A DNA stretch of 64,000 nucleotides from Aphrocallistes beatrix (lineage: Eukaryota; Porifera; Hexactinellida; Sceptrulophora; Aphrocallistidae). Shown piece by piece: positions 2,970 to 31,385 of this stretch. The stretch lies in NCBI GenBank assembly GCA_963281255.1, contig OY725500.1:3033184-3097183 (forward strand). The letters run 5' to 3'. Position 1 is the stretch's first letter, and each line of letters begins with the position of its first letter. The position numbers and the translations under genes were made by a program. Under the pieces are notes generated by a model. It had not been told where the DNA came from and made no database searches. It saw only the letters and a program-made list of their open reading frames with translations.

Positions 2970-3169
2970 NNNNNNNNNNNNNNNNNNNNNNNNNNNNNNN
3001 NNNNNNNNNNNNNNNNNNNNNNNNNNNNNNNNNNNNNNNNNNNNNNNNNNNNNNNNNNNNNNNNNNNNNNNNNNNNNNNNNNNNNNNNNNNNNNNNNNNN
3101 NNNNNNNNNNNNNNNNNNNNNNNNNNNNNNNNNNNNNNNNNNNNNNNNNNNNNNNNNNNNNNNNNNNNN
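2970..3169. other. Assembly gap of 200 Ns
   Basis: Exactly 200 unknown bases. The gap abuts the outer edge of the left arm of the 3170-4016 palindrome, which fits assembly failure inside an inverted repeat. Confidence 0.99.
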
Positions 3170-4955: not shown

Positions 4956-7796
4956 CGATACCGCCCGCGAAAAATCATATGATTTGGCTTACAGCATACG
5001 ATGAAAGTAGAGCTATAAGAGATGCTAAGCGTGGGCACGTATCTCCGTATAGAAATACTTGCACATTCCAAACCGTATTTGATTCTCATTTTGGAAATAC
5101 AGTGTCTCAAAGTCTGTTTTTTTCGTGTCGCTAGCACATCTAAATGGTAGATATCCGGCCACTCCAAAAAAATTTTAGGACATAACAAGGAAACAAATGC
5201 TTCCAAAATCGAATTATAGATAGTCTATCATATTTGCAACCTCATAGGACCAAAATAAAGGTAAAATGAGAAAAACTGTAAATTTTAACTGTGTCTGGAA
5301 AAATGTGCCAAAAATAGGCGAAAAACGTCTGTTTTTTGGTAATCAGGAATAAAATCACCAAGCTATACGTAAGATATCGAAAATAAAGTGGTCCTACGTT
5401 CATCGCCTAATGATATGGAACAACTCTTGAAATTTTCAAACCCCTATCTCAAACCATAGCCTACTGTATATAAGGCCTCAGAGTAACTTCACCAGGGATG
5501 CGGTAGAAGGTGGCTGAACTAATACACTGAGCTCCCTTAAATCATTAACAAAGCACAATAGAGCTTAGGAATGTATTACCAGCATATATAAATATGGTGT
5601 CAAAGTAACCATATCCGTTGTTAAAATTTAGATTAGTCACCATATGGTTGCGCAATAGGGTATATTTGTGACAAATTTGGTGATTTTCAGAGGCCATTTA
5701 AAGGCATTTTTAAGCGTTATTATTGTAAAACTTTTCGCATAGAACTGAGTTGTGAATGGGTTCATACGAAAAATTTGGAATTTTTTGATGGAATGTTGCT
5801 ACATTCCAGTGTTGCTATGGAAACGTGTTTTGGTCAGTTGGGGTCATATCCTAAAAACCGCGAAAGCTAAACATTCAAATGTGATTCCATTTGATAGAGA
5901 ATATTACTACTTCCTATTAAGCGATAATATAATTTCGACGTCTAAATTAAATGGTTTAAGAGATATTCGACAAATTACCAAATGTGACCAATATGATAAA
6001 TTGTCTAATAACTCGTAAACCATTGAATTTACACAAATAAATTATATTATCACTTAATAGGAAATAGTCTATTGGCTATCAAATGGAATCACATTTGAAT
6101 GTCTCGCTAACGCCGTTTTCAAGATATAACCCCAACTGACCAAAACACATTTCCATAGCAACTCTGGAATGTAGCAACATTTCATGAAAAATTCCAAATT
6201 TTTCGTATTAACCCATTCACATCTCAGTTCTATGCGAAAAGTTTTATAATAATAACGCTTAAAAATGCCTTTAAACGGCATTTTAAAATCTCGAAATTGG
6301 CCACAAATATACCCTATTGCGCAACCATATGGTGACTAATCTAAATTTTAACAACGGATATGGGTACTTTGACACCATATTTATATATGCGGGTAATACA
6401 TTCCTAAGCTATATTGTGCTTTGTTAATGATTTAAGGCAGCTCATGTATTAGTTCAAACATCTTCTACCGCATCCCTAGTCCCAAATTCTCAAGTTACTC
6501 TGAGGCCTTATTATAGTAGGCTATGCTCGAACCAATTTTAACTAAAAATTTTGAAATTTTAAAGTCTTGAGATAGAGAGATTTTAAGTTTAGATGTTAAG
6601 AACAATGTAAAATGAGTTATTAAAAATAAACAAAATCATTTACTGGCATTTATTCGCAATTATTACTGATAATTTATGTATAGTCGAAACAAATATTTAC
6701 ACAAAATAGGAAAAGTACACTGGAAATCCAGAAATTTCCTTGTGGCCCCTAACCCCGAATATTCTGAGGTAATTGTGAATAATACTTGTAATTCATATTC
6801 CTAACACTACGAAGTATAATCCATTAGTTTAGAATGAATAAAGAGCTTCCAAAAAGTATATTAGGAAGTTAGAGCGAAATTATACGACTTCTAGTTTCCA
6901 AGTTAAGATTTTCGAAAAATCTAAAACTTACATTCCATATGATGTAGTGCAATTATTATCAATTAATCATATAAGTACCCTCATAAAAAGTATATTAGGA
7001 AGTGAGAACTAAGAATTTGGGCTTATATTTACAGAGCTAGAGAGATATCTCTTTTTGGACCCTAAATGGGAGGTTTTGACCGAATCTGGGAGGTCCAAGG
7101 CCAGAACTTTCAAAACAATTATCAAAAGTTCTCCAATTTTTGTATACACATCATCAACGACAAATGTATTCATTATTTAGCATATTAGCCACATTTGGAT
7201 ACATATTTAATGATTAGATTCGCTATTTTCAAATATATTCAAAAGTTCTTATTTTTTGACAAAGGATTGTTTGAGGAACCTATATATATTCTCATATATC
7301 CTTTCATTTAAGATTATAATAGATTATTTATCTTCAATAGTCTTTAAGATATGATATCGGCCTCTTTCGGGACCACAGAGAGATATTTTGCCCGAACTTT
7401 ATCTATAATGAGCGATATATCACGAACAAATGGTCGGATCCGAACAAATTTTTTGTTGAAACGATCAGAATTTTATTTCTGATCCAATGATCGCTAAATA
7501 TCTAATATCGAAAAGGCGATTTCCCGATGCATTATATAAATGAACTCTAGAACTATTTTGATTGGCTTTTTTGTCCTTTCTTTTAAATCTTTGTGTTATA
7601 TAATCTCCAAAGGGGTCAAAGCAAAGTTAAAGTACATATCATCAAAAAATATCAAATAAGTTAAAAACTAATTGGTGAATGCTTCAAAAACCTCCAATAA
7701 TTTTTCAAGAAACGCTAAATTTCAGGGGGTTAACTCATAAAAATCAAAATAAATACCGTCCAACTGCCAGGCAAAAGTTTTTCGAGGGCGGTATCC
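4956..7796 (+). mobile_element. Family C element (Kolobok-like, TTAA target)
   Basis: Non-coding element with short inverted ends: left CGATACCGCCCGCGAAAA, right TTTTCGAGGGCGGTATCC; other copies give the consensus GGATACCGCCCTCGAAAA. It is flanked by TTAA at 4952-4955 and 7797-7800, and the Helitron sequence resumes just after the right TTAA. TTAA duplications with 5' purine-purine ends are typical of the Kolobok superfamily; piggyBac also uses TTAA. After removing the D foldback at 5455-6525 it is about 1.8 kb. No transposase is encoded. Confidence 0.8.
5455..6525. mobile_element. Family D foldback (P-like non-autonomous)
   Basis: Ends CATAGCCTACTGTATATAAG and its inverse. The whole 1071 bases fold on themselves, 5455-5990 pairing with 6010-6525. 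It is flanked by CTCAAAC (5448-5454) and CTCGAAC (6526-6532), a 7-base target duplication with one change, inside the family C sequence that normally reads ATCTCAAACCAATTTTGA. No protein is encoded; ORFs in the arms are shadows of the repeat. Confidence 0.85.
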
Positions 7797-7800
7797 TTAA

Positions 7801-8150
7801 AGGTCTGGCTGATGCAGATCTGCAGGTTACTCAATTCAATAGTGAATGGAGACAGGATCAGGATAGAGCAATTACCTTTTTCCTTACTGGCAGTCCTCGA
7901 CAGATGTTCGAGCTCCATCAGGACAGTCAGGATAGTATGTCTTACGTCCGGAAATACAGTAAACCTGATTTATTTACTACAATTACATGTAACCCGAAAT
8001 GGGAAGAGAATTCTTTTGCTCTTTTATTGAATCAAAAATCGACTGACTGTCCCGATTTAACTGTAAAGCATATTAAAACGCTAGGATTTTTTTTGTCTGT
8101 TTGTCCGAATTGATTGGAGAATTAACAAGTCGTAGAGTTTTGAAAAATGG
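7801..8150 (+). pseudogene. Helitron Rep domain, continuation after family C
   Basis: Reads KGLADADLQ, then FFLTGSPRQMFELHQDSQD and YVRKYSKPDLFTTITCNPKW. The last block is the conserved Helitron segment just before the HUH motif. It continues the fragment that stops at 4951, so both are one Helitron copy split by family C. Similarity fades after CPDLTV and no HUH motif is visible; the copy ends close to the hAT-type element at 8168. Confidence 0.85.
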
Positions 8151-8773: not shown

Positions 8774-10111
8774 CTACGGGCGTTCAATAAGTAGTCGTTA
8801 TTGCAATTTATCTTGGTTGTTCCATTTAATTCAGAATTGGGTTAGCATATCTAATGTAGCCCTACCGATGCTCTTTCAAATGATACTTTACTTTTTCAAT
8901 TCTGAGCTTTGGTTTTTATACTGTGGCTATTATTAGTTTGGCATTTTTATATACTGGCATTTATTATGGCTTCCGAGAGTGCAGATTTCAAAACTGAGCA
9001 GCGAGCCTATGTAAAGACTCATACACTGCTCCAAGTTTCTTCAACCGACATCCACAAGGATTTGATGGAGGTTTATAATGATAGAACTCTTCCATATTCC
9101 ACGATAGTTGACAGGACCCGACGTTTTCGTGAGGGAAGAGAGTCGATAGAAGATAAGCCCAGAGCAGGGAGGCCGATTTCCGGCGCCAGTGACAAATTTG
9201 TCCTCGAGGTTTCCGAATTACTTGAAGAAGACCCCCTATTTCATTTATGGAGATAGCTAATGCAGTTGGGGTCTCAACGGGAACCGCTCATACCATTGTG
9301 CATGACAATTTTCAATTTAGGAAAATCTGCGCTCGGTGAGTCCCGCATGCACTAGCACAGGCCCAGAAAACTAAGAGGGTTCAATGTGCTCAAAAGTTGC
9401 TTTCTGACTTCGATAGAACCGACTCCAGAAGTCTATTCGAGATCGTGACTGGTGATGAGACTTGGGTGCGTTATAGCGAGCCTTTGTCAAAGGAAGCTAA
9501 CAAAGTATGGGTAGCTAAAGGCCAGGACCCACCAATAATCCCTCGATATGACTTCCGGAACCCCAAGGTTATGTACTGCATATTTTTTTATTCTTATGGT
9601 CCAGTGTGCCAGATTTGTGTCCCCAAGAATACCACTATTACTGGATCATTTTACATGAGTGAGTGCCTATCTGAGGTTGAGAAATTCTACCACAATCGAC
9701 GGCCAAGGACTGGAACTCGAGGATTGAGATTATTGCATGATAATGCCCGACCCCACTAGACCAAACTGGTAAGGGAAAAGTTGGAAAGTCTGAGAGTTGT
9801 AGAGCTAGATCATCCTCCCTAATCACCAGACCTCGCTCCATGCGACTTTTGGCTCTTCCCTAAGCTGAAGAAACACCTTTCAGGGAGGGAATTCGAAAGT
9901 CGGCCTCACCTCGGATCGGCGATTTTTCAGTATATGAAAGGTATACCACGTGGAGACTTCAAAAAAGTTTTTTGGATTGGATTAAGAGGCTAATACTAGT
10001 TATACAGCATCAAGGAGAGTAGTTCGAGAAATTGCAGCATTGATATTAATTATATTACTTGTTTTTGGGGAAAGTATACTATGATAACGACTACTTATTG
10101 AATGCCCGTAG
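8774..10111 (+). mobile_element. mariner element with both inverted ends
   Basis: Left end CTACGGGCGTTCAATAAGTA and right end inverse CTACGGGCATTCAATAAGTA, about 28 bases alike, flanked by TA on each side. Length 1338 bp is usual for mariner. The internal gene (8966-10043) is broken by stops and a frameshift, so it cannot be autonomous now. Confidence 0.92.
8966..10043 (+). pseudogene. mariner transposase (DD34D), inactivated
   Basis: The first frame starts MASESADFKTEQRAYV and carries the N-terminal helix-turn-helix region, ending with the linker EDKPRAGRP. A frameshift follows near 9235. The catalytic half contains VTGDETWV (first D), LLHDNARPH (second D) and SPDLAPCDFWLFPKLKKHL (third D). 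Counting through the stops gives 34 residues between the second and third D, the mariner DD34D spacing. Stop codons interrupt after NARPH and within HPP-SPD, among other places. In life the enzyme cuts and pastes the element at TA sites in the nucleus. Confidence 0.92.
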
Positions 10112-11310: not shown

Positions 11311-13022
11311 TAATATTAGACAAAACTGTGTCAGGCATTTTGTTGATTTTACGTTCTCTGCAAGCCAGGTTCTGAACTTAGATCATATTTTGCTAGTATT
11401 TTGTCCTATATTTTAAAAAATTTCACTTGGCCTGGCCCGAAGGAATAATAATAGTTTGATGACAAAATTGTTAATCATCTACCTAGGTAAATGCAATAGA
11501 CCAACTATATCATGTTTCCTAGCCGACCAGCATCGTTTGAAAAATATTCTTAAGTGATTATTCTCTCCTAATTTAATTTAAGTTAACATATCGTGTACCC
11601 GTGTAGACGAATGGTTGAAATATGCAAGGGAGGGGCGAGATAAGTTTAATTTGTTAATTGCATAGATCAAAAGTTACTTTATTATATTTTCAACTTGTTG
11701 AGCAAGTCAGCCCGAGAGGCAAAATGTTATGTGAGCAAATATTTGCAATAAATACGACAAATTTACTTCTCACATCCAGGGGCAGCTGATACAGTTTCAA
11801 ATCGCGACAAAAACATACTCTTAACAACGGCAAAAATTCCTGGAAAATCTGATCCCACTCTTGCAGTTATACAATCCACCAAAGTGTGAATAAATGAATG
11901 AACAAATTGTTTTGACTACTCATAATGCGTGAATCTTAATATTAATACGGTTGCATCCAGTGAGGACACGATAGACTTCTCTTGACTATTCAAAGTTTCC
12001 AATCACCATTCGAAAGATTGTAAGATTTAATAATTATGCACCTTTTTCAGCTTTTACATTTCTTTGAGGAAACCATTTTTTCCAATTGTCACCTGTCATC
12101 AGGTCAAGGAAGGATGAATTGATTTTATCTCGCGTTAAAGTTGAACTGATTTATCGAGGAATCTGATGCACTCTCCTGTTTTCGCTAACAATGATCAAAT
12201 ATGTAAAGTTTATAGTGACTTAATCGCGAATAAACATTTCGCTGGTCAATAGTTTCATAATATTTCTAAATAACTAATCATATTCAGTTCTGTATTTTTA
12301 TGATGTAATGGTCTGATTTGGTTTATGAAATGCACTGATGCGATTTTATAGACTAGACTCGTGGACTGAATACTTGTTAAATTACTTGATATGCTGAGTA
12401 CGTCATAGCTCAGTATATCCTGTAGAATTCAGCAATAACGTGATTATTCAACATATTCAATACTGAGACATGGTATTTTCTAAAATTTCAGCATTTAACT
12501 ATAGCATTCTCTAGTTTGGAATGAAATTGCGTGAACTGGTTAATGAGGTTTGTTTATAGAATAACTAGCATCTTGTAAGATCCGATGCGATCCATATAAC
12601 GAATAATTATAAATATATACTTTGGTACCCAACATCATTTTTTAACAGTTCTTAGATGCGCGAAAATGCGCGGACTCTTGTTTTTTCCACACTATTGTTA
12701 GCATTCGCAAATTTCGGACAAAACCGCCGATAATTGAATTCACTATATTATCTGGATAAATGTCTCATATAAGGCGTCTACTTAATTAACATTGTCGTAG
12801 TAATGTGTTTTATTTCTTACTTGTGAACCCATATGGATGGAGTTTAATTAAATCAGCACGCTTTACGTTAAATCATTAATCTGGCCCATTTATTGTTAAC
12901 TTTTCTGGATTACGCTTATATATTTTTAATGAACTATAACTACAGTACACTATCTAATAACGATTATTATCGTTAACTAACAACTCTATAGACGGAATAC
13001 ATTAACAACACTAGTGGGAAAG
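11311..13022. other. No recognised feature
   Basis: AT-rich DNA of 1.7 kb. I see no convincing ORF, inverted repeat or similarity to other parts of the window. Confidence 0.5.
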
Positions 13023-13466
13023 CTAAAGTCCGAGCAGCTCCCTCATTGATTTCAGAATTCGCGAATCCTCTTCCCTCTGCTGCTTGATCAGAGCAATGGT
13101 TTCGCGATCTTCATCTCTTTGCTCCTTCAAAAGGCCGATAACTTTCCGATCGTCCTGCTTCTGTAGTTTTAGGTAGTTGATAACTTTGCGATCCTCCTCC
13201 CTCTGTATTTTGAGAGAGTTGATGAATTTCCGATCCTCCTCCCTCTGCTCACTAATAATGAGCATCAGTTTAGCGTCCTCATTCCTCTCCTTTAGCATGG
13301 CCTCAAAATTTGAGGCTAAGGAGTCCAATTCACTGCTCATCTTTGTGAACTTTTCCATTAATCCAAGATTGCAATTGTGAGCGAGCGTAATTGTGAGCGA
13401 TTGTAATTGTGAGTAAATGCAATAGTATTCGTATTTATATTTTTGAGCAAACCTGGCATTCTTCAT
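13023..13466 (-). CDS. Coiled-coil protein with five 14-residue repeats
   Basis: A 147-residue frame; translation may start at an internal ATG giving MEKFTKMSSELDSLASNFEA. The C-terminal half is five tandem 14-residue units of the type QREEDRKVINYLKL, QKQDDRKVIGLLKE and QRDEDRETIALIKQ, ending KSMRELLGL. Fourteen residues are two heptads, so a long charged coiled coil is predicted. No signal peptide or catalytic motif. The frame has no internal stops, and the units differ enough to argue against recent slippage. It lies 475 bp from the RAG1/Transib-like gene and is transcribed the other way. The family is not recognised. Confidence 0.5.
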   Translation of the reverse strand: MKNARFAQKYKYEYYCIYSQLQSLTITLAHNCNLGLMEKFTKMSSELDSLASNFEAMLKERNEDAKLMLIISEQREEDRKFINSLKIQREEDRKVINYLKLQKQDDRKVIGLLKEQRDEDRETIALIKQQREEDSRILKSMRELLGL

Positions 13467-13887
13467 CTTGTTTACATTGTTATTAATCGATTGAAGATTT
13501 AGTATCTTACTTAGTATTAAAATTGTAGGTGTGATAGTATTACTTGATACCTCTTGGTTTCAGCCACACAACATTTTTTCTTTCTTTGGTTTCAGACAAA
13601 ATTCTTTCCTTCTTTGGTTTCAGACAAACAACATTCCTTCCTTCTTTGGTTTTTCATGTGTGAAAAGTAAAGCATAACAATATCATATTCTTGTCTCTAT
13701 GCATCGAAAATTCCCATTGAATTCATGTTTATTATTTTCCAAATGTCGATCGTGCCAAATAATGTGGATGGTGAAAATGAAATACGTATAGCATATTTAC
13801 GTACTAATTAACAAGTACTATGTATATTAAATTATTTGGTGATTTTTATATTACATAATACGTTATTTATTTGCAAGTAGAGATCTG

Positions 13888-13898
13888 TTTATATAAAC
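13888..13898 (+). promoter_or_regulatory. TATA-like element before the RAG1/Transib-like gene
   Basis: GTTTATATAAAC lies about 45 bp upstream of the start codon at 13942. A similar TATATAAATG lies about 55 bp upstream of the start of the second copy, so the arrangement is shared. Confidence 0.5.
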
Positions 13899-13941
13899 TC
13901 ATACATACGTACAGCTCAAAACCAAAGGGAACATTTTTCTA

Positions 13942-16142
13942 ATGAACAACCAAGACGCATTTACATTTCTCAATCAAAACGAATCCAGTTCTAGCGCAGC
14001 CCGCAAATACATGGAAATATTCAAATTAGATGAATTCCATTTTAATGCTCTGAAGTCTAAATTTAATAAATTAAAGTTGTCAAGAACAAACTATGTGAAG
14101 AATCAAAACATTGACACATGGAATTCTCAACCCTTTCGGTTAGTAGAGGTGCAAGATAAGAATTTCGCTAAGAAACGCAAATCTGTTTCTACAGATGATT
14201 CAATTTTCACTGTACTCCCTGAAACTTTATGTAGTACTTGTAATAGCCAAAGGGTAACTCTATGCTTACATTGCTCAGGTGGCACCTTTGTTGAACACAT
14301 TTCTGTCCAGCGCAAACACATTAGTGAATTGAAATTGGAATCCCAAAGGTTTAGGCTCGATGTCTTATTGCAACATATAAAGTTTATTGCTAATCGTGAA
14401 GGTGTAAACGAAAAAGTATTGCAAATTATGCACTCAAATTGATTTCTAATGTTGAGCATGACAGAAAGGTATCTCATGTTTGTTCTGAAATTTTAGACAC
14501 AGGCACATTTGTCCAGCCACAAAAACAATTATCGATTGACAAATCTGCTTTCCTGCTTGATACTTTGGAAATTGGTAAAGGAAATACTCCAATAATCGAA
14601 AATTATGCAAGCCCGAGGGGATTATTTTTCCAACCTATAAAAAAATTGCTTCGTTTCGATCTGAAATCTCTCTTTCAAATCGAATTATAATGATTGAAAC
14701 TAAAGGGCTCACTGTTGGTGCAAGTTACCCATATATTGAAATGATACAACACACCACTGAAAGGATTCTACAAACGATTGTAGTGAATCAAGATCAATAC
14801 CCAATGGAAGTAGAAATTGCAGATGGGCTAGATGGTTCAGGAAGTCATAGAATCTACAATCAAATAAACAACAACCCGAATTTCACAACTAAAAACTTTC
14901 TACTGTTTGCTTTCAAGGTTCTCTCGATTAAGGACAGAAACAATGCTACACTATGGCACAACAGCCTTCATAATTCTCCCTATTCCACTCGACCCATCTA
15001 TTGGCAAAGAATGAGTTCATTGAAACAATTGAATTTCTAATGAAGGAATTTATTAATCCTCCTACAATGCGGCTCGAAAAAGATGGCATGAATTTATCAG
15101 GTGGCCACTGTAATGTGAAAGTACGTCGTACTATGTTCGATGGTAAAATGTCAAAAGTATTGAGTGGTGCTGGTGGCGATTCTCACCAATTATGCACTAT
15201 GACACATGCTCAGCTCAAAGATCTTGAACTAATAAGATCTTCATTCCCGATTAACTGGCAGATACAAGATGCGATTGCAATATTTAATGACGTCGATATA
15301 GACGAATTTCTTAGGTTAGACTCTAATTCCAGATTTGGCTTAACTCACCAACCTCTACTAAAAATATTATTCCAGCATCACCTCTTCACAGCTATTTATG
15401 TGTTTTCAGGTGGTTAATGTTATTGATATACCATCTCGATGCAGGCTTACATAAATGGTCTCCAACATCTCCAAAGATACAGAATTCCATGAAGCGAATG
15501 AGAACCTTGTTATCAGAAAAAACTGGTTATCAAATTGATCTTCCATCCTGCGATGGAGGTACCACTACCACTGGAAATGTTGCAAGAGATTGCTTTTCTG
15601 ATAAACGGGACTTCTCTAAGTGGGCAACATCAATCATTTGTGAACAAGATCAGGAAATAATTAAAACACTACAAAACAATCTTTCTGCTATTCTAAGGGT
15701 TTTAACAGCAGCCACAAAATCGAACTATACAATTGAACATTCTTTGCAATGATACTTATGAGTTTATTGTAGTGAACTTCCATTGGGCGAATATTACTCA
15801 TCACTTCACAAATTACTGGCCCACTCCGCGGAACTGATCGAGAAATATAACAATGGCTTTGGTCTTAAGGATTTTTCAGAAAAGGGTCTAGAAGCATTGA
15901 ATAAATATGTCAGAAAGTTTAGAGAACACCTATCAAGATAGTTCTCTTTCGAAATGAACATAAAAGATATCCTTGTTAGGTTGACAACTCAGAGTGATCC
16001 CGTCTTAGATAACTATAGACTTTCAATGGTTAGCAAAACTAAACATGATCAAAATTTATCTCTCCAGGATTTGATTGTGGAAAACTTGCTGTTGTGTAGT
16101 GAAGATCACGAAGGATGTAAAGATTGCATGGTAGGGAAATAG
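13942..16142 (+). pseudogene. Transib/RAG1-superfamily transposase, copy 1
   Basis: At least six successive frames make up one transposase of about 720 residues. After an N-terminal part (MNNQDAFTFLNQNESSS) and a cysteine cluster (LCSTCNSQRVTLCLHC, about 14230) come the catalytic motifs: LDGSGSHRIYNQ with the first D, TMFDGKMSKVLSGAGG with the second D, then QLCTMTHAQLKDLELIRSSF. Next are a GGTTTTGNVARDCF block, NFHWANIT and LLAHSAELIEKYNN. Last is GLEALNKYVRKFREH with the E in the register of RAG1 GNESGNK, followed by LVRLTTQSDPVLDNYR, resembling the Transib TSDP tail. Frameshifts and stops show it is inactive. Terminal repeats and 5-bp duplications were not found. No RAG2-like kelch gene is adjacent. 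Confidence 0.8.
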
Positions 16143-16209
16143 TAATTTGATTATACAAATACATGTTAGTTTTAGTTTAGTATCAGAGATCCCATCATAA
16201 TCTTGATTT

Positions 16210-16830
16210 ATTTATGTGTGTGTAAAGAATTACAAGTAGATATAGTATGAATATACTCATATAGTATTGATTCATGGAATGCTTCGTGGTTTACCATTTT
16301 TCCTGTAATTATGATTACGTCATGCCAATTATCATAGTCATACAACTGAAGTGACAAAATTGATTCCCAGATGTGGACATACATTTCATGGGTATCTTCA
16401 TCCATTAAGGACTTTTTCATTGAAATTTTTAAATAGCAAAATACGATGACGTCATATTTCGCACATATGAAGTCATACAACTGAGTTGAATACACTATTC
16501 GATTCCCTGATATCGATAATATATAGGCTGATAATACATTTCATAGGTCTATCCTTATCCATTAACTCAACTTTGGCTAGGAATGTTGAATTGAAAGTGA
16601 AAGTTGAATTGAAAGTGAATTGAATATGAAAATGAAAGTGGGTTTTTTCTATTTATACCTTTGACCCCAAGCCATCTTAGGGTTATTAATGACTTTTTCA
16701 TTAAAATTAAAAACTGGGCATAATACGATGACGTCATAACTCGCACATATAAAGCCATACAACCGAGCTGAATATGCCATTCGATTCCCAGGTATCGAAA
16801 ACCTATATGCTGATAATACATTTAGATTGC
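16210..16830. repeat. Three diverged direct repeats with TGACGTCA-type sites
   Basis: Related blocks lie at about 16310-16400, 16400-16555 and 16680-16830. Each combines a GACGTCAT-type site (ATTACGTCATG in the first), a CATACAACYGAG-like stretch, GATTCCC and ATACATTT. The last two blocks align closely over about 140 bp. Minus-strand ORFs here follow the repeat and are not convincing genes. Confidence 0.6.
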
Positions 16831-16899
16831 CTACCTGGCCTCTAAATACCTAATCGTTGTAAACTGCCATTTTGCCCCACTGTGCAATGTTAGGAATAA

Positions 16900-17740
16900 A
16901 ATCAATTATAGTTGCGCACGATATGTTCAGCATGAGAAACAGAAGCCAGTTCGTGAAATTGCGTCAGAAATAAGCCAGAAGCGAGGTTTGGAGGTGTCCA
17001 AGAGCACTGTCTATCGGTGCTTGAAAGACATGGGTTATAGTAAGCCTATTGCCAAGCGTGTCCCCATGCTATCTGAAAAAAAACAGACACTTTAGGATGG
17101 AATGGGCTAAACAAAATATGAATAAACACTGGTATCGTGCTGTTTTCAGCACGATACCAGTGTTTATTTTTTTGGCAACGAAATGGAAGTGTTTATTCTT
17201 TTTGGCAACGAAATGGAAAGTTACGAATGTGGACAAAGGTTAAGAAAACCATTATTCCGACGGTGAAACATTCACCCAAACTGCATATTTGGGCTGCTTT
17301 CTCATCGATGGGCACCTTTCCTTTGTGTGTTTTCACACGAAACTTGGATGATCAATTCTTTGTTGAAATACTCAAGTGGCATTTACTCCATCAGGCGAGA
17401 GCATTCCATGGGGATAGTTGGATTCTCATTCAAGATAATGACCCCAAACACACATTTCGTGTGGCGAAGACATTAATGTGTCAAAATATGAAGAAACATA
17501 TGATGGATTGGCCCAGTCAAAGTCCAGATATCAATCCTTTGAGAACTTATTCGCCTGGCTAAAACAGAAGTTATCGAGGAATCGTTTTCGAACTTGAAAA
17601 TTAAGGAAATTAAGTCGGAGCTGCTCGAACTATGGGAATCTATAACTCCGGAATACTTAAAACCATATTACAAGTCAATGAAGTGCAGATGCAAGTTAGT
17701 CATAGAAAATAATGGGTATAGTATCAATTATTGAACAATA
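16900..17740 (+). pseudogene. Tc1-like transposase, inactivated
   Basis: The N-terminal helix-turn-helix part reads KPVREIASEISQKRG and KSTVYRCLKDMGYSKPIAKR. The central part includes HIWAAFSSMGTFPL, and the catalytic part has WILIQDNDPKHTFRVAKT and MDWPSQSPDINP, after which a frameshift replaces the expected IEN motif. The frame recovers as LFAWLKQKLSRNRFR-like sequence to a stop near 17734. A run of eight A's (17077-17085) shifts frame. A perfect hairpin and an imperfect duplication at 17121-17215 have replaced the region of the first catalytic D. Terminal repeats were not identified. Confidence 0.85.
17121..17168. repeat. Perfect 22-bp hairpin inside the Tc1 frame
   Basis: 17121-17142 is exactly complementary to 17147-17168 with a TTTT loop. 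The right arm runs straight into a direct duplication of about 28 bp (TTTTTGGCAACGAAATGGA appears twice by 17215). The combination looks like a local template-switch event within the transposase. Confidence 0.9.
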
Positions 17741-17897
17741 CCGCTCTGGGTACTGTATATATATCTTGTTTTAGTGGCCCCTTAATCAAATGTTACATAC
17801 AGTTTGTCCCATAATTATTGTTACACTCGAGACGCTCACTAAATCCCTTCAAAATCCAACATAACATAATATTTGGAAGTAATAATGCATTAATCTT

Positions 17898-18376
17898 ATT
17901 ACCAGGACAAAAGTATTCGACTACCACAGAAACTGTCATACAAATAGTGTTAAATTGGGTCTATTCATAAAGGAATATGTTCTCAAACTGTAAGGAATAC
18001 TCTATTTTTTATTTCAAATTCGTAAACTAAACATTTCTAATTACTAATAATTGAGAGTTTCAACTCAATTACCTATTCTTATGTTGAAAATTATCAACCT
18101 ATGCCACTTTGTGTCACTAAACGCCATCATATACAACGGCTGTGACTTGGGACAAGTAGCATCAAGTATCAAATGTTGATATTTATTAACTTGGGAGTTA
18201 GTAATTAAGCTGAGGCTATCAATTATGAGTAATTAGAATGTGCAGTTTACGAATTTGAAATAAAAAATAGAATATTCCTTACAGTTTGAGAACATATTGC
18301 TTTATGAATAGACCCACTTTAACACTATTTGTATGGCAGTTTCTGAGGTGGTCGAATACTTTTGTCCGGGTACTGT
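17898..18376. repeat. Tc1/mariner-type MITE with about 130-bp inverted ends
   Basis: The left end ACCAGGACAAAAGTATTCGA is mirrored at the right as ACCCGGACAAAAGTATTCGA, and pairing extends into the GTAAGGAATA region of both arms. It lacks coding sequence. The core motif ACAAAAGTATTCG is shared with the MITE at 364-845. Confidence 0.8.
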
Positions 18377-18387
18377 ATATATATATA

Positions 18388-18799
18388 CAGTGGAACCTGT
18401 ATATAACGGCCACCCAAGGGACTGGATAAAATTGGCCGTTATACACAGGTGACCGTTATATACAGGTGATTGTCTTAATCCTATCTAGAATGAAACATAG
18501 TTACTACATGTAGTTCTATTACTTGAACTAATTACATGAAACCTGTTTATCGTTCGTAACAGGTCCTGTAATAAACACATAAAAAGGTGAAAAAGTGATC
18601 GCCGATATAGACAGTTAGTGGCCGTTATACACAGTTTAGAGTCAGTAAGGGACTACAAACGGGTGGCCGCTGGCCGCGTTGAGCAGGTGACCGCTATACA
18701 CAGGTTCAATATTATGGAATTTCGGACGAGACTGTTCATTAGTGACCGCTATAGACAGGTGACCGTTATATAGAGTGACCGTTATAGCTGGTTCGACTA
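18388..18799. repeat. Pogo-type MITE with GACCGTTATA words
   Basis: Starts CAGTGGAACCTGTATATAAC after TA; the right end inverts to AGTCGAACCAGCTATAACGG and is followed by TA repeats. The word GACCGTTATACACAGGT and variants (GGCCGTTATA, GACCGCTATA) occur about ten times. CAGT-RGAACC ends with TA targets are typical of pogo/Tigger relatives. No ORF. Confidence 0.75.
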
Positions 18800-18807
18800 T
18801 ATATATA

Positions 18808-19412
18808 TATATAGACACATTAATCGAGTTTTAATAGTAAGGATTACAAAACAGTTAGAACTTATGGAAATCGAGTGAGATATATGAATATTTTTTAAAT
18901 CCCATTAGCGGAGACGTTGTCAGCACTTATAAATGTGATAACTTTTTGTATATTCAACATAAAAGCGAAAACTTTTTTTAATAGATCTCGAAGAGTAGAA
19001 CAAAATGAACAAAAAGATTTTTGATAATACAAATAAAAAGAGAATTATGAAAAAATAATGTCAAAATTAGTAAAAAAAATCCTCGGGTGTTTTAGTGTGA
19101 ATTTATACCAATTTTCAAAATTTCAAAAAAATCTCTGTTCATTTGATATTTCACGAATTTATGAAAGAATTTGTAAATTTTCTAAAATGTTGCAAGCATA
19201 TTGTGTCCGATTTCTTCTTTGTAAATGACTATTTTATTTTGAAAATAAATTCATCTGTTCTATTATTTCTATCATTAATGCAGTTTTGCAGATAACTATG
19301 CGATTCAAATCTGCACTGAAAAAATTAAATAAATCGGTTGAAAAAGTCAAAAGTTAGTTATTATACGAAAGGCCAACAATAAACATAGGCATGTATCACC
19401 TTCAAGAAATCA
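18808..19412. other. Family A core, then featureless AT-rich DNA
   Basis: ATTAATCGAGTTTTAATAG, the family A core, is at about 18818-18836 right after a TA run. The remaining 570 bases are A/T-rich without an ORF or repeat I recognise. Confidence 0.5.
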
Positions 19413-19831
19413 TTAAGGATACCGCCCTCGAAAAATCTTATGATTTGGATTACAACATACGATGAAAGTAGAGCAATAAGAGATGAAAAGCGTGGGCAGG
19501 TACCTCCGTCAAGAAATACTTACATTTTCCAAACCGTTTTTGATTGTCATTTCTAATTTTTGAGATACAGCCTCTCAAAGTCTGTTTTTTTCGTTTATCG
19601 CTAGCCCATCTTGATGGTAGAAATCCGGCCACTCAAGGAATTGTTTAGGACATACAAAGGAAACAAATGCTTCCAAAATCGAATAATAGATAGTCTATCA
19701 TATTTGCCATTTAATAGGACCAAAAGAAAGTTAAAATGACAAAAAGTGTAAATTTTATCGGTGTCCGAAAAAAAGGGCCAAAAACGCGAAAAATGTCTGT
19801 TTTTTGGGAAATCAGGAATAAAATCACTAAG

Positions 19832-20897
19832 CATAGCCTACTCTAATAATGCCTCACAGTAGACTGAAAATCATGGACTAGGAATGAAGTAATAGCCGAA
19901 TGGATTAATACACGATTAGCCTGAAATCGTTAACCATGCAGAATAGCCATTAAGAATGTATCACCAGCATATATAAACATGATATCAAAGTACATATATC
20001 CGTTGGAAAAATTTCGATTAGTCATCATATCATTGCGCAACAGGTCATTCTAAGGACAATTTTAGCGATTTTCTAAGCTGTTTTAACCCTATTTCTAAAT
20101 GGTATTAAGGTGTGATTTTTGTGTAGAACCAAGATTAGTACGAGTTGATTTGAAAAATTTAGAATTTTTCAATGGAATGTTGTTACATTCCTGCGTTGCT
20201 ATGGTAAAGCATTTTGGTCAGTTTGGGCCATTTCGTGCAAACTGTAGTAGCTAGATCTTCAAATTCGATCGTGTTTGATAGGCAATGGCCTACTTCCTAT
20301 TAGGTGATAATATAACTTGAACTTCTAAATTCAACGAGTTTTGAGTTATGGGTTGATTTTAAGAATGTGGCCAAAACATTAAATTGTCTCATAACTCTAT
20401 AGTCTGTGAATTTAGAAGTTTAAATTGTATTATTACCTAATAGGAAGTAGCCAATTGCCTATCAAATAAAATCAAATTTGAATACCTAGTTCTTACAGTT
20501 TGCAGGATATGGCCCAAACTGACCAAAATGCTTTATCATAGCAACGCAGGATTGTAACAACATTCCATTGAAAAATTCTAAATTTTTCAAATCAACTCGT
20601 ACTAATCTAAGTTCTACACAAAAATCACACCTTAATATCATTTAGAAATAGGGTTAAACAGCTTAGAAAATTGCCAAAATCGTGCTTAAAATGACCTGTT
20701 GCGCAATGATATGATGACGAATCGAAATTTTTCCAACGGATATATATACTTTGATACCATGTTTATATATGCTGGTAATACATTCTTAATGCCTATCCTA
20801 CCTGGTTGACGACTTTAGGCTAATCGTGTATTAATCCATTCGGCTATTACCGCATCCTTGGTTATTTTACTGTGAGGCATTATTAGAGTAGGCTATG
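19832..20897. mobile_element. Family D foldback, second copy
   Basis: Ends CATAGCCTACTCTAATAATG and inverse, 1066 bp, a near-complete palindrome with its centre near 20365. Flanked by identical CACTAAG at 19825-19831 and 20898-20904, within family C sequence. Diverged from the copy at 5455-6525 in the interior but built the same way. Confidence 0.88.
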
Positions 20898-21852
20898 CAC
20901 TAAGTTAAAACATATCGAAAATAAAGTGGTCCTACGTTCATCGCCTAATGATATGGAACAACTCTTGAAATTTTCAAACCTCTACCTCAAACCAATTTTG
21001 ACAAATTCTGTAAACACGGTCAAATTTGGAATTTTAAAGTCCCGAAATATAGAGATTTAAAGTTTAGATGTTAAGAACAATGTAAAATGAATTATTAAAA
21101 ATGAACAAAAGCATTCACAGACATTTGTTCGCATTTATACTGGTGATTTAGGTATATTCGAACCAAAAATTTACATAAAATAGCAAAAGTACCCTGAGAA
21201 TCCACAAATTTCCTTGAGGCCCCTAACCCCGAATATTTTGAGATAATTGTGGATAATAATTTATAATCCTAGCACTACGAAGTATAATCTATCAGTTTAG
21301 AATGAATTAAGCGCTTCCAAAAAGTATATTAGGAAGTTATAGCAGAAGTCTACGACTTTTAGTTTCCAAGTTAGGATTTTCAAAAAATTCTACGTCATTG
21401 TATGACAAAAATCTAAAACTTACATTCCATAGGATGTAGTGCAATTATTATCAATGGATCATATATGTACCCTTATAAAAAGTACATTAGGAAGTGAGAA
21501 CTAATAATTTGGGCTTATATTTACAGAGATAGAGAGATATCTCTTTTTGTGCCCTAAATGGGGGTTTTTGACCGAATCTGGGAGGTCCAAAGACAGAACT
21601 TTCAAAATAATTATCAAAAGTTCTCCAATTTTTCTGTACACATTATCAACGACAATTGTATTCATTATTTAGCATATTAGCCACATTCGGATACATATTG
21701 AATGATTAGATTCGCCATTTTCTAATATATTCAAAGTTCTCCATATAATTTGTATTACAATTAAAACAATGATAAGTCGAGAAATATTTATTTTTTGACA
21801 AAGGAATGTTTGAGGAATCTATATTTATTTTCGCATATATCCTTTTATTTAA

Positions 21853-22994
21853 GGATACCGCCCTCGAAAAACCTTGCCAGGCGTTAAAAAAATTTTTGTA
21901 TTGCTAATTTCATTGTATTACTGATCGGTCTACCATCTGATAGCACTATTTGGGCGGTATTTATTTTGATTCTTGTGAGTTAACCACCTAAAGTTTAGAG
22001 TTAAATATTAGAGGTTTTTGACTCATTTACCAATTAGTTTTTAACTTATTTGATTTTTTTTTAATGATATGGACCTTAGCATTGTTTTGGCACCTTTGGA
22101 GATTATATAACACAAAGATTTAAAAGAATGTGCAAACAAAATAGTTCCATAAGCGAGTTCATTTATATAATGCTGGGAAATCGCAAGGTTGATCCCAGAT
22201 ATTTAGCGATCAGAAATAAAATTCTGATCGTTTAAAAAACAAAATTGTTCGGATTCGACCATTTATTTGGACACATATTTAATGATTAGACTTGCCATTT
22301 TCTAACAGATTCAAAGTTCTCCATAGAATTTGTATTACGACTAAATCAATGATAAGTCGAGAATTAATTATTTTTTGACAAAGGAATGTTCGAGGAACCT
22401 ATATATTTTCGCATATATCCTTTTATTTAAGGATATAATATATTATATATCTACAATAGTTTTTAAGATATGTAATCGTCCTCTTTCGGGACTTTAGAGG
22501 GATATTATGCCCGAACTTTACCTATAATAAGCGATATCTCAAGAATAAATGGATCCGAAAAAATTTTTTTTTGAAACGATCAGAATTTTATTTCTGACTA
22601 GTGATCTCTAAATATCTGATATCAAACTTGCGATTTCCCGAGCATTATATAAATGAACTCCCTTATAGAGCTATTTTGTTTGGATTTTATTTGCCCATTC
22701 TTTTAAATCTTTGTGTTATATAATGTCCAAAGGTGCTAAAACAATGTTAAGGTCCATATTATTAAAAAAATATCAAATAAGTTGAAAACTAATTGGTAAA
22801 TGTGTTAAAAACCTCCAATAATTTTTCAATTTTTATTAACGCTAAACTTTAGGGGGTTATCTCACAAAAAATATTTTTAAATCCGTCCAAATAGTGCTAT
22901 CAAATGGTAGACCGATCAGTAATAAAATGAAATTATAAATACAAAATTTTGCCATTTTTTTTACGCCAGGCAAGGTTTTTCGAGGGCGGTATCC
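21853..22994. mobile_element. Foldback derived from family C right ends
   Basis: Both ends are right-type C ends: GGATACCGCCCTCGAAAA followed inward by CCTTGCCAGGCG, and the inverse at the other side. TTAA occurs on both sides. The left flank resembles an internal C site (CTTTTATTTAAGGATA) and the right flank a different internal site, so this is not a simple insertion; recombination between copies is likely. Confidence 0.7.
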
Positions 22995-23888
22995 TTAAGC
23001 GTGGGGAGGTATCTCCATCAAGAAATACTGGCACATTCCAAACCGTTTTTGATTCTCATTTCTAGTTTTTGAGATACAATGTCTCAAAGTCTGTTTTTTT
23101 CGTTTATCGCTAGCACACTTAATGGTAGAAATTCGGGCACTCAAGGAATTGTTTAGGACATACCAAGAAATCAAATGCTTCCAAAATCGAATCATAGATA
23201 GTCTACCATATTTGCAACTTCATAGGACCGACCAGAAGAAAGTGAAAATGACAAAAATTGTAAATTTTATCGGTGTCCGAAAAAAAGGGCAAAAATGTCT
23301 GTTTTTTGGGGAAATCAGGAATAAAATCACCGAGTTAAAATATCTCAAAAAAATGGTGGTCCTACGTTCATCACCTAATGATATGGAACAACTTTTGAAA
23401 TTTTCAAACCTCTATCTCAAACCAATTTTGAGTTAAAATTCTGTAAGATGGTCAATTTTGAAATATTAGAATCCCGAGATATAGTGATTTTAAGTTTAGA
23501 TGTTAAGAAGAATGTAGAATGAGTTATTAATAATGAACAAAAGCATTCACAGACATTTGTTCTCATTTATACTGCTGATTTAGGAATATTTGAACCAAAT
23601 ATTTACAAAAAATAGCAAGAGTACCCTGAAAATCCACAAATTTCCTTGAGGCCCCTAACCCCGAATGTTTTGGGATAATTGTGAATAATAATTCATATTC
23701 CTAGCACTAGGAAGTATAATCTATCAGGTTAGAATGGTTAAAGAGCTTCCGAAAAGTATATTAGGAAGTTAGAGCGAAAGTCTACGACTTTTAGTTTCCA
23801 AGTTAGGATTTTCGAAAAATGCTACGTCATCATATGACAAAAATCTTAAACTTAATATTCCATAGGGTGTAGTGCCATTATTATCAAA

Positions 23889-24768
23889 GACACGATATCT
23901 CAAAAACTAGAAATTAGAATCAAAAGACTGCTTAATGATACCGCCACGGTATTTATTTTAATTTTAATGAGTTAACCCCCTAAAGTTTAGCGTTACTAGA
24001 AATTGAAAAATTATTGGAGGTTTTTGACGCAATCACCAATTAGTTTTTAACTTATTTGATATTTTTTTATGATATGGACCTTATTGAGAAATAATTCTAA
24101 CGAAAAAACAGACTTTGAGACATTGTATCTCAAAAACTAGAAATGAGAATCAAAAACGGTTTGGAATGTGCCAGTATTTCTTGATGGAGATACCTCCCCA
24201 CGCTTAACATCTCTTATAGCTCTACTTTTATCGAATGCTGTAAGCCAAATCATATGTTTTTTCGAGGGCGGTATCCTTAAGAATATAATAGATTATATAT
24301 CTTCAATAGCTTTTAAGATATGACATCGGCATCATTAGGGACCATAGAGAGATATTATGACCGAACTTTACCTATAATAAGCGATATTTCAAGAACAAAT
24401 GTTCGGATCAGAAAAAATATTTTTTTTGATACGATCAGAATTATATTTCTGATCCAGTGATCGCTAAATATTTGATATCAAACAGCCGATTTCTCGATCA
24501 TTATATAAATGAACTCCCTATTTGACCATTCTTCTAAATCATCGTGTTATATAATCTCCAAATGTGCTAAAACAATGTTAAGGTACATATCATAAAAAAA
24601 TATCAAATAAGTTAAAAACTAATTTGTGATTGCGTCAAAAACCTCCAATAATATTTCAATTTCTAGTAACGCTAAACTTTAGGGGGTTAACTCATAAAAA
24701 TTAAAATAAATACCGTGGCGGTATCATTAAGCAGTCTTTTGATTCTAATTTCTAGTTTTTGAGATATC
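23889..24768. repeat. Palindrome around a TTAA-flanked C derivative
   Basis: TTAA at 23932-23935 and 24727-24730 encloses ends TGATACCGCCACGGTATTTA and inverse. The outside flanks are also inverted copies of one another (AGAATCAAAAGACTGC on the left; GCAGTCTTTTGATTCT on the right). The whole segment is therefore an inverted duplication, not an ordinary insertion. Confidence 0.75.
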
Positions 24769-25004
24769 GTGTCTCAAAGTCTGTTTTTTTCGTTTCTCGC
24801 TAGCACATCTAAATGGTAGTGCCCCGGCAACTAAAATATTTTATAGGACATGCCAAGAAAAAATGCTCCTAAATCGAATCCTAGATAGTCTATCATATTT
24901 GCTACCTCATAGGACCAAAATAAAATAAAAATAACAAAAATTCTATTTTATATGGGTCTGAAAAAGAAGTGCCAAAAAACCCTTTTTTTGTTAAATCAGC
25001 AATA

Positions 25005-25399
25005 CAGTAGACCCTCGATTATCCGAACAGTGTGTTCGAGTACCACTCATTTTATCAAATACTTTTCAATCGAATTTGTGAAAATAATGTGTTTGGATAA
25101 CTGAAATAATGTGTTCGGATAACTGAAATATGTGTTCGGATAACTGAAATAATGTTTAATAAATCAATTCCTTAAAAATGTATATTCCAAAAATTGTGCG
25201 TACCATTGTCAATTTGTTTGGCTATACATACGTGTAAGTAGTATTCAAATCATAATACGTTCTTTAATAACATCTAAGTTGGTACATGTGCATTTAAGAG
25301 CGTAAAATACGTATTTCGCTTATCCGAACGATTTCACTTATCCGAACACCAATCTTTGAGCTAACAAACGGAGGTGTTCGGATAACCGAGGGTGTACTG
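25005..25399. repeat. Pogo-type MITE with GTTCGGATAA words
   Basis: CAGTAGACCCTCGATTATCC at the left and its near-inverse at the right (GGATAACCGAGGGTGTACTG), flanked by TA in family C sequence. The word GTGTTCGGATAACTGAAA is repeated in tandem near 25090-25150 and TTATCCGAAC occurs near both ends. Confidence 0.8.
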
Positions 25400-25942
25400 T
25401 AATATCACTAAGTTATAAGATATCGAAAATCAAGTGGTCCTACGTTCATTGCCTGATAATATGGAACAACTCTTGAAATTCCAACCCTCTATCACAAACC
25501 AATTCCGACTTTTTTTATTTTGAAAAAGGTCAATTTTGAAATTTTAAAGTGCCGAGATATAGAGATTTTAAGTTTAAATGTTAAGAACAATGTAAAATGA
25601 GCTATTAAGGGCAAATTAAAGCATTGATAGGCCATAGCATTCTATATACTAAGGCAATGGCAATCACCAAAAAATTAGTCCCATGGATTGGTTAAATACT
25701 TCAATCCTAAACCGCTAATTAAATAACAGTTATTATCAAATATATAATTATCTCATATTTTGAGTTCATGGTTGTTTAAATAATCATTTTGAAAAGATTG
25801 TGTAACCACAATATTTATATTTACTTCACATACAACATTAGTGTATTGCACTAATGTAGTGTTTTGCTGCATATTATTTCTATTACTCAATTATAATACC
25901 TCACAGGACAACACTGATTGCATGAATTAATATTTGGACGAG

Positions 25943-26540
25943 ATGTCTTGTGTCGCGCATGACTTTACTTCCAATTACAAAGAGGTAAACTTCATGATGT
26001 TTTTCAATTTCACAAATTATGCTGCTCTTCGTGAAAATGGTATTGAGCCAGTCCAAGACCTGTGAAGACTACCAAAACAACAAAATTCCAAGGGTGAGTT
26101 ATTTCTTAGGTAATGTAATTATTCTGAAATCATGCATACACATACTCAAGTTGGGTAGAAACAATTGACTGAATTTAAAAGACTAGAAAAAGTGTTTACC
26201 TTCCCTAAATTTAGTGAATGCATTCCTCGTTACAACAAAAACATGGGCATAAGTACCTTTTTAATTCGGATAAGTGCAATTTGTATAAACGTACTCCAAA
26301 TTAACATCGAAAGCCTGCTGGTTGTCAGCTTGGAAAGGCAAAATGTAATTTTGGCCCGTAAGGTTTTCGTTTACCCAACTTCAGCCGGACTGTTAGCTTA
26401 TATCATGGAAAAGAACATTGTAGACAAGGACCAAACTGTTGAGTTCTTGAAATTCATCAATGATATTTAGAAAATGTTCAATGTGAATTGGGTAGGGAAG
26501 AATAGTCGTTTAACGACGATATATCTGCACCCTCAGCAGA
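25943..26540 (+). pseudogene. THAP/P-like transposase remnant
   Basis: At 25943 a degenerate THAP-like start reads MSCVAHDFTSNYKEV and FMMFFNF; the SNYK step is typical of THAP fingers but key cysteines are lost. A donor-like GGTGAGTT follows near 26092. From 26165 a frame reads FPKFSECIPRYNKNMGISTF, LIRISAICINVLQ, LERQNVILARKVFVYPTSAG and TVEFLKFINDI, then a stop where TGG is expected, then KMFNVNWVGK. The block resembles the C-terminal insertion-domain region of THAP-containing transposases, where a segment on 'FxxFINDxW' precedes the C-terminus. Assignment is by general pattern. Confidence 0.4.
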
Positions 26541-26835
26541 AATTTAAAACTTTCATTCTAGCCCTTCCCGTACTAATATTATTCATTTGGCAATTGCTAC
26601 TATGGAACTAGAACATTGTAATAATGTTAAGACCTAAGTATATATAATGCACTAGTATTGGAACAAGATAATAGTAAACTTGCTAAATTCAAGAACTAAT
26701 TTAATACATTCTTTGTTTATTTAGTCGACTTCACAGGGTGTAGAAGTCCGGAATGTGTGACTATATCCTATTGAAAGGCCGGAGTGTCATTGTTCCTTAT
26801 TACTTGTAGAAGTATATTGTTCCCTTATGATGCCT
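26541..26835. other. No recognised feature
   Basis: AT-rich spacer between a transposase remnant and a tandem repeat. Confidence 0.5.
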
Positions 26836-26958
26836 CAAGTCTCAGGTCTCAAGTCAAGTCAAGTCAAGTCAAGTCTGTCTCTCAAGCTAAGTCAAGTCTG
26901 TCTCTCAAGCTAATTCAAGTCGGCCCCTCAAGCTAAGTCAAGTCTGTCTCTCAAGTTT
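26836..26958. repeat. CAAGT-based tandem repeat
   Basis: Five-base CAAGT units pass into a 22-base unit of the form CAAGTCTGTCTCTCAAGCTA, repeated about four times. Confidence 0.9.
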
Positions 26959-26996
26959 CAATATTGTGATTAACTATTCTTTTGATATTTTGTATG

Positions 26997-27095
26997 TACA
27001 AGCGCGCTTCGCTTGCTTGGGCTGCGCGCTGGCGGACACTTTGTGTCCGCCAGAGGCGCCTGTTGTCACCATTGATTAAATATGGGAGATAACAA
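26997..27095 (+). repeat. Family A terminal hairpin cassette, isolated head
   Basis: TACAAGCGCGCTTCGCTTGC, then the perfect hairpin GGCGGACAC-TTT-GTGTCCGCC, then GAGGCGCC and an ATATGGGAGATAAC remnant. This is the outer end of family A without the arm. Confidence 0.85.
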
Positions 27096-27285
27096 ATTGT
27101 TGTTAGATTATATTTTCGTTCAATATCTTAATTCCATTTATTTGCAATTAAACTAATTTATGATTTGATATTTTATTTATTTGTCTTTACATGATTATAG
27201 TGATTTATCAGAAAAATATAGAAATAAATACATCAATATTAATGATCAAATAAGATGTCCATATAACACGTTAGGTTTTATATCA

Positions 27286-27470
27286 GTGATCGAGTAGCTC
27301 CATCTGTTGCAACACTGTAAGTGATCGAGTAGTTCCATCTGTTGCAACACTGTAAGTGATCGAGTAGCTCCATCTGTTGCAACACTAAGTGATCGAGTAG
27401 CTCCATCTGTTGCAACACTGTAAGTGATCGTGTAGCTCCATTAATTGCATCACTCTAAGTAATCGAAAAT
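27286..27470 (+). repeat. 35-bp tandem repeat, about five units
   Basis: The unit begins GTGATCGAGTAGCTCCATCT and ends GTTGCAACACTGTAA. One unit lacks three bases and the last is degraded (ATTAATTGCATCACT). There is no spacer variation, so it is not a CRISPR array. Confidence 0.9.
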
Positions 27471-27882
27471 ATCTATTGGATATGATGGGATTCTTATCTC
27501 ATTAAATTAATGTATTTAATTAAAAGATTACTGTAAGATTACTTAAATACTCCCTGAATTAAGTAAATTGTGAACAGATTTCCATTGATCAGATTTTCAT
27601 TGATATATTGCAGAAACTATATAAAATGTATTATAAATGACAATTTAGACAATAAAAAGACTAAGTATTCAACTTACTTTTTCTAAATCACAACCTAAAT
27701 GTTTTATTACATGATCTAAAAAATAGAAAATAATTTTGCAAAATAATTAAGATGCCTGTTTTCACGATTTGGAAATTACGCTTACCTTATTTAAATTGAA
27801 ATTCCAATTTAAATTCCTTGATCGGTACTGCTGATTTTCCCCTAATTAGGCAATTTGTATTTATCATATATACGTATATTAG
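27471..27882. other. No recognised feature
   Basis: AT-rich DNA of about 400 bases with no ORF or repeat that I can support. Confidence 0.5.
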
Positions 27883-28131
27883 TTATATATTAGTTATAAT
27901 AATCGCACAAAAGCTCACCGCTATTTTATCTTCAAGCAATTTTATTTTCTTAAAAGATATTGCAATTTCTGCCCCTCTCTTCTTCCCTCCTCTTCGTCCT
28001 CTCCTTTTCTTTACCCGTGGCCGTGGCTCGTAAAACGTCTCCTCAGACGTTTCACTCATTATTTCCTCCGGTGTTTCTGCTGTTATCTCCTCCGGTTTAT
28101 CAGTAATTATTTCTTCCGGTGTTCCAGTCAT
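27883..28131 (-). CDS. Small acidic-then-basic ORF, function unknown
   Basis: Frame of 82 residues. Residues 1-32 contain four imperfect acidic repeats of the type TPEEI (KPEEI, TPEEI, TSEET). Residues 38-52 are strongly basic, VKKRRGRRGGKKRG, with an NLS-like look. The C-terminal 25 residues are hydrophobic and AT-rich, and may be intron read-through. It could be one exon of a nuclear protein. It abuts the minisatellite at 28285 and has no recognisable domain. Confidence 0.35.
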   Translation of the reverse strand: MTGTPEEIITDKPEEITAETPEEIMSETSEETFYEPRPRVKKRRGRRGGKKRGAEIAISFKKIKLLEDKIAVSFCAIIITNI

Positions 28132-28284
28132 TGTAATTAATGAATTTTATTAAAACCTTTGATCTGAAAAGAAATAAGTTGTGCTGATTCTGGAATAATT
28201 CACATTTATATGGTTGTTGCATTTTAACAGTTCATCATTTAATATAAAAATTAAATATATGTGCATAAAGAGTTCTATAACATT

Positions 28285-28878
28285 GTATCTTAATCGTCTC
28301 GTGGTATATCTGTGTGTAAGATAGCGTACATCCGTCTCGTGGTGTATCAGCATGCAAGAGAGCGTACATCCGTCTCGTGGTGTATCAGCATGCAAGAGAG
28401 CGTACATCCGTCTCGTGGTATATCTGTATGTAAGAGAGCGCACATCCGTCTCGTGGTGTAGCTGCATGTAAGAGAGTACACATTCGTCTCGTGGTATATC
28501 TGCATGTAAGATAGCGTACATCCGTCTCGTGGTGTATCAGCATGCAAGAGAGCGTACATCCGTCTCGTGGTGTATCAGCATGCAAGAGAGCGTACATCCG
28601 TCTCGTGGTATATCTGTATGTAAGAGAGCGCACATCCGTCTCGTGGTGTATCTGCATGTAAGATAGCGTACATCCGTCTCGTGGTATATCTGCATGTAAG
28701 AGAGCGTACATCCGTCTCGTGGTGTATCTGTATGTAAGAGACCGTACATTCGTCTCGTGGTGTAGCTGCATGTAAGAGAGTACACATTCGTCTCGTGGTA
28801 TATCTGTATGTAAGAGAGCGTACATCCGTCTCGTGGTGTATCAGCATGTAAGAGAGCGTACATCCGTCTCGTGGTATA
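28285..28878. repeat. 38-bp minisatellite, about 15 units
   Basis: The unit contains GAGAGCGTACATCCGTCTCG followed by TGGTGTATCTGCATGTAA. Unit length 38 is not a multiple of three, so reading frames cycle through the array with a period of three units. Because the unit has no stop in any minus-strand frame, long minus-strand ORFs run through it in all three frames. These are not evidence of a protein. Confidence 0.92.
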
Positions 28879-31380: not shown

Positions 31381-31385
31381 GAAAT

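Follow-up and report, generated by a model that had tools for sequence, protein, structure and literature searches.

Introduction

Transib transposons are well described in the literature (including PMC8355894 and PMC7878743), and 262 CMC-Transib copies were reported from one sea louse genome (PMC7878743). In the account given by PMC4411706, known Transibs encode a transposase alone, and the canonical transposase has no identifiable domain beyond its core. The same paper gives autonomous elements as single or at most few in a genome, and names stops and frameshifts as typical marks of transposon fossils. The RAG1-like (RAG1L) proteins of invertebrates are described in PMC7204232 as carrying a Cx2Cx3GHx4C motif in the tail in essentially all cases and as having a convergent RAG2L gene; the same source describes 5-bp target duplications and, for RAG, a nick-hairpin route of cleavage.

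The first-pass annotation had read one region of the window (the whole stretch of DNA analysed, 64,000 nucleotides) as a RAG1/Transib-type transposase with a readable catalytic triad, and had suggested that it may sit between Transib and the RAG1-like groups. Comparison of this region (copy 1), and of a second region found with it (copy 2), indicates that both are very probably fossil relics of Transib-type transposases. Their stops and frameshifts, and their number within the window, fit the description of Transibs in PMC4411706; a weak test for a RAG2-like partner, which detected none, is compatible with it.

Results

Copy 1 is a broken coding region with an aligned catalytic triad

The features of the two copies are as follows.

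13942 to 16142, plus strand: copy 1, decayed transposase coding region, very probably Transib-type (phmmer E = 6.7e-16 to HzTransib, 6pqn)
13942 to 14418, plus strand: N-terminal 159 residues of copy 1 with CxxC-x7-CxxC, without counterpart in the HzTransib stretch compared
14828 to 14848, plus strand: LDGSGSH block with the first catalytic Asp, D298 (motif and alignment)
15130 to 15150, plus strand: TMFDGKM block with the second catalytic Asp, D401 (motif and alignment)
15181 to 15195, plus strand: SHQLC, zinc pair with the second Cys (C419) kept and the first replaced by His (H416) (alignment)
15885 to 15905, plus strand: GLEALNK block with the catalytic Glu, E653 (motif and alignment)
34150 to about 32303, minus strand: copy 2, a second, divergent and decayed transposase, very probably Transib-type (tblastn with the copy 1 read; 43.1 bits to HzTransib)

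Copy 1 opens with an ATG at 13942 and its stop ends at 16142, with the coding region spread across three frames. Six frame changes (near 14419, 14619, 14999, 15364, 15741 and 15778) and one in-frame stop (15939-15941) interrupt it. Joining the frames, a check that had been proposed, yielded a read of 735 residues with an X at each join. The LDGSGSH, TMFDGKM and GLEALNK blocks each lie in a different frame and in the order reported by the first-pass annotation, whose coordinates were also right.

D298, D401 and E653 align with the D, D and E of HzTransib, the amphioxus ProtoRAG protein BbRAG1L and RAG1, and the earlier view that the Glu is in register with RAG1 holds, E653 being aligned with the RAG1 Glu. 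The D298 and E653 columns are invariant in all five aligned sequences, while the D401 column is kept in four of the five and lost in copy 2. We take the catalytic role of these columns from RAG1 D600, D708 and E962. The zinc His pair in copy 1 is H625 and H630, and QLC supplies the second of the paired zinc-binding Cys positions. The spacing between this Cys and the second Asp had been described as being as in RAG1. It is 18 residues in copy 1, 18 in copy 2 (counted from the Gly at the second-Asp position) and 19 in HzTransib, as compared to 22 in both BbRAG1L and RAG1, and is therefore Transib-like.

In the case of the N-terminus, 227 residues precede the HzTransib match in copy 1, compared to 40 in the PDB chain, where the match starts at chain residue 41. 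The CxxC-x7-CxxC pattern consists of C97, C100, C108 and C111. For the copy 1 N-terminus, the zinc-finger matches returned by Pfam were all sub-threshold, with no domain above cut-off, and a fold predicted from the single sequence of the first 159 residues was too poor to use (mean pLDDT 36.9). The match of copy 2 to copy 1 starts only at residue 123 of copy 1 (tblastn). The N-terminal extension is the one feature of copy 1 that departs from the plain description of a Transib.

Copy 2 diverged from copy 1 largely before both decayed

Copy 2 as read shifts frame five times and contains seven in-frame stops, the final two of which fall in a poorly aligned tail. Its second Asp is replaced by Gly (SILGGKM, starting at 33306) and its second zinc His by Gln, and both zinc Cys residues are kept. 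Core identity between the copies is 172/391 (44.0%), and 39% over the alignment as a whole. Because of this distance, the copies are, as judged from their alignment, two Transib families and not one recent burst. Across 561 comparable codons, mismatches number 266 at first positions (47%), 191 at second positions (34%) and 364 at third positions (65%). From this excess at third positions it follows that a large part of the divergence arose when both copies were working coding genes; they died later.

Neither copy at present encodes a full transposase in one frame. The breaks in both are most likely true decay rather than assembly error, because the window also holds an intact 747-residue frame and because the catalytic residue of copy 2 was lost by substitution. 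A third copy was not seen in the window: tblastn gave 12 matches up to E 10, 11 of which belong to copy 1 or copy 2, the other having E 9.3. Between the flanks of copy 1 and those of copy 2, only matches of 12-27 bases were obtained (E 0.28 or worse).

Similarity scores and tree tests point to Transib

Against PDB, phmmer matched copy 1 to HzTransib (6pqn) at 6.7e-16, to BbRAG1L (6b40) at 0.0082 and to RAG1 (3jbw) at 0.78, with three unrelated chains (E 0.18-0.22) ranking between BbRAG1L and RAG1. The HzTransib match covers two stretches of copy 1 (query residues 228-434 and 481-695) and scored 59.2 bits in a local rerun with three references. When the residues of copy 1 were shuffled 100 times, a match was reported for a single shuffle (to HzTransib, at 2.8 bits); a chance similarity to HzTransib is excluded. 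Copy 2 scored 43.1 bits to HzTransib, 6.8 to BbRAG1L and 1.3 to RAG1.

On the Pfam RAG1 model (cut-off 25 bits), BbRAG1L scored 224 bits and HzTransib 22, both entered as core stretches, and copy 1 scored 13.8; copy 2 gave no match up to E 1. The check with a RAG1 model, which had been proposed with the original reading, thus did return a match to copy 1, though a weak one that lies below both the cut-off and HzTransib. An intermediate between Transib and RAG1L should exceed HzTransib on this model, and the lower score of copy 1 therefore argues against that position.

Core identity to HzTransib is 93/339 (27.4%) for copy 1 and 86/337 (25.5%) for copy 2. The corresponding values are 75/360 (20.8%) and 73/362 (20.2%) to BbRAG1L, and 17.5% and 20.1% to RAG1. 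HzTransib itself is 22.9% identical to BbRAG1L and 21.6% to RAG1, values that differ little from those of either copy. By this measure the copies are no closer to RAG1L or RAG1 than HzTransib is, and the differences are small.

A tree (LG+G4) was built from five sequences (copy 1, copy 2, HzTransib, BbRAG1L and RAG1). The two copies are split from the rest with aLRT/bootstrap support of 99.5/100, and BbRAG1L and RAG1 with 100/100. Topologies joining the copies to BbRAG1L or to RAG1 were rejected in this five-sequence unrooted tree (p-AU 1.1e-5 and 1.2e-5). The two tests disagree on a pairing of HzTransib with one copy alone: AU rejects it (0.003), SH does not (0.11). With one Transib and no root, the tree is compatible both with a position inside the Transib clade and with one on its stem. 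HzTransib shares the GTT..GN and SDP blocks found in copy 1, in agreement with their earlier description as Transib-like. Taken together, the scores, the Pfam RAG1 model, the identities, the tree tests, the zinc-loop spacing and these blocks all appear to place the copies with Transib. The suggested position between Transib and the RAG1-like groups was not upheld by the scores, tree tests, spacing or blocks.

Hallmarks of RAG1-like elements and element ends

The Cx2Cx3GHx4C motif gave 0 matches in the six frames of the window, where a frame change within the motif could hide it. A mouse RAG2 core query against the same six frames gave a best phmmer E of 0.42 and a best tblastn E of 4.9. This query is insensitive to divergent RAG2L: against PDB it returned no chain named RAG2L up to E 10, and it would miss such a protein. 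As a weak test, frames 60 residues or longer that lie convergent to each copy were compared with kelch and RAG2 Pfam models. No match up to E 1 was obtained in 10 of the 11 minus-strand frames overlapping 16143-26142 (copy 1) or in 10 of the 13 plus-strand frames overlapping 22303-32302 (copy 2).

CAC-type ends and 5-bp duplications, which the first-pass annotation had proposed as a check, gave nothing beyond shuffled controls around the copies. With ungapped ends and exact CAC only, 0 CAC-starting inverted pairs were found around copy 1 (shuffle mean 0.54, maximum 2) and 2 around copy 2, which is the shuffle level (mean 0.44, maximum 2); the 5-bp flanks of these 2 were mismatched. An earlier scan around copy 1 with narrower limits also gave 0 pairs (shuffle mean 0.3). 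Among the 19 inverted pairs listed in 12500-18500, I8 (21 nt) and I10 (15 nt) span copy 1 and are not CAC-starting. The ends of both copies are decayed, further out, or lost.

Relatives were sought in viral and prokaryotic contig collections, where absence means little. None was confirmed in viral contigs (3 pattern matches with copy 1, 130 with alignment A2 and 2 with HzTransib) or among the 90 pattern matches of alignment A2 in prokaryotic genome contigs.

Neighbouring features of the window

Other features were observed at the following positions. The composition of the window, together with the transposase family, points to an animal host.

2970 to 3169: run of 200 N, assembly gap
7679 to 8113, plus strand: separate Helitron_like_N piece (E = 2.5e-12)
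8906 to 9759, plus strand: broken mariner/Mos1-type transposase, with HTH_48 in 8906-9253 (E = 0.00044, below cut-off)
16826 to 17734, plus strand: broken Tc1/mariner-like transposase downstream of copy 1, with DDE_3 in 17122-17559 (E = 8.9e-05, below the Pfam cut-off)
17159 to 17218: duplicated 30-bp stretch within the Tc1/mariner-like relic
17900 to 18372: long inverted repeat, its 136-nt arms 93% complementary and separated by 201 nt; perhaps a small non-autonomous element
28295 to 28875: tandem array of a 38-bp repeat (about 15 copies) that reads open in several frames of the minus strand
29308 to 31319, minus strand: Helitron-like remnant with PIF1 helicase (E = 2.1e-39) and an OTU protease domain beside it (E = 2.4e-05)
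36637 to 37373, minus strand: stretch similar to a P-element-type transposase (weak Pfam match, E = 0.089)
54936 to 57179, minus strand: intact frame of 747 residues encoding both the N- and the C-terminal domain of gamma-tubulin complex proteins; probably belongs to the host

Discussion

Alternative readings of the two copies

The copies could instead belong to a RAG1-like (RAGL/TransibSU) element or to a lineage on the stem that separates Transib from RAG1L. In favour of this, the triad is in register with RAG1, weak matches exist to the Pfam RAG1 model and to BbRAG1L, the N-terminal extension carries two CxxC pairs, and an unrooted tree with a single Transib is compatible with a stem position. 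This reading is nevertheless very unlikely, as copy 1 falls under HzTransib on the RAG1 model and copy 2 does not match it, neither copy exceeds HzTransib in identity to BbRAG1L or RAG1, AU rejects a grouping with either, the D-to-Cys spacing is 18 and not 22, and the tail motif is absent from all window frames. A RAG2-like or kelch match was not detected either, though by a weak test.

A domesticated, Transib-derived host gene would be consistent with the intact triad of copy 1 and with the divergence of two lineages under coding constraint. With copy 1 broken by six frame changes and one stop, and copy 2 as read by five and seven, domestication is highly improbable, and the intact frame at 54936-57179 speaks against wholesale indel errors in the assembly. 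Least credible is that the copies belong to another DDE superfamily (Chapaev/CMC or an unrelated one) and resemble Transib in short motifs only. Chapaev would be marked by Chapa and RING domains and by a Chapaev-type core. The comparison covered HzTransib, BbRAG1L and RAG1, which leaves this reading some room, but the similarity to HzTransib runs through two long stretches and includes the zinc His pair and the GTT..GN.AR and SDP blocks. The full read of copy 1 matched only RAG1 and a zinc finger in Pfam up to E 1, a listing from which HMMER filters drop most matches above E 0.1.

The reading of both copies as Transib-type relics is therefore preferred. A further step, that they come from a separate Transib lineage not described before, which carried a zinc-finger-like extension at the N-terminus and had several active versions in one genome, is possible but rather doubtful. 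If it were true, Transib N-termini would be more diverse than the core-only picture suggests, and zinc-rich N-termini would extend beyond the RAG1L and Chapaev branches.

Proposed activity of the intact elements

What was observed here is the homology, the triad, the loss of the reading frame and the coding constraint during divergence of the copies. By analogy with the family, the one protein of an intact element would have bound to terminal inverted repeats of the CAC type and cut with a DDE/RNase H active site (D298, D401 and E653) by the nick-hairpin route, and the element would have inserted with a 5-bp target duplication. The nick-hairpin route is that of Transib as well as of RAG.

The lesson is mainly negative: an ordinary Transib relic can look RAG1-like. 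The gain lies in two divergent sequences, very probably Transib, from one genome, which diversified as working genes before their death. The relics carry no direct bearing on how RAG1 arose.

Comparison with known systems

HzTransib (6pqn) is the closest of the systems compared. It is the best match and shares the triad, the zinc-ligand columns, the GTT..GN.AR and SDP blocks and a near-equal D-to-Cys spacing. It differs in that core identity is 25-27%, the copy 1 N-terminus is longer than that of the PDB chain, and both copies are broken. BbRAG1L (6b40) has a homologous DDE core and triad, but its identity to the copies is 20-21%, its zinc loop is longer, it lacks the GTT block, and its tail motif was not found in the window; it is described with a RAG2L partner (PMC7204232), whereas RAG2L was undetected near the copies by a weak test. 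Vertebrate RAG1 (6xnx) has a homologous catalytic triad and zinc ligands, but its identity is 17.5% to copy 1 and 20.1% to copy 2, and it is an immune recombinase rather than a relic.
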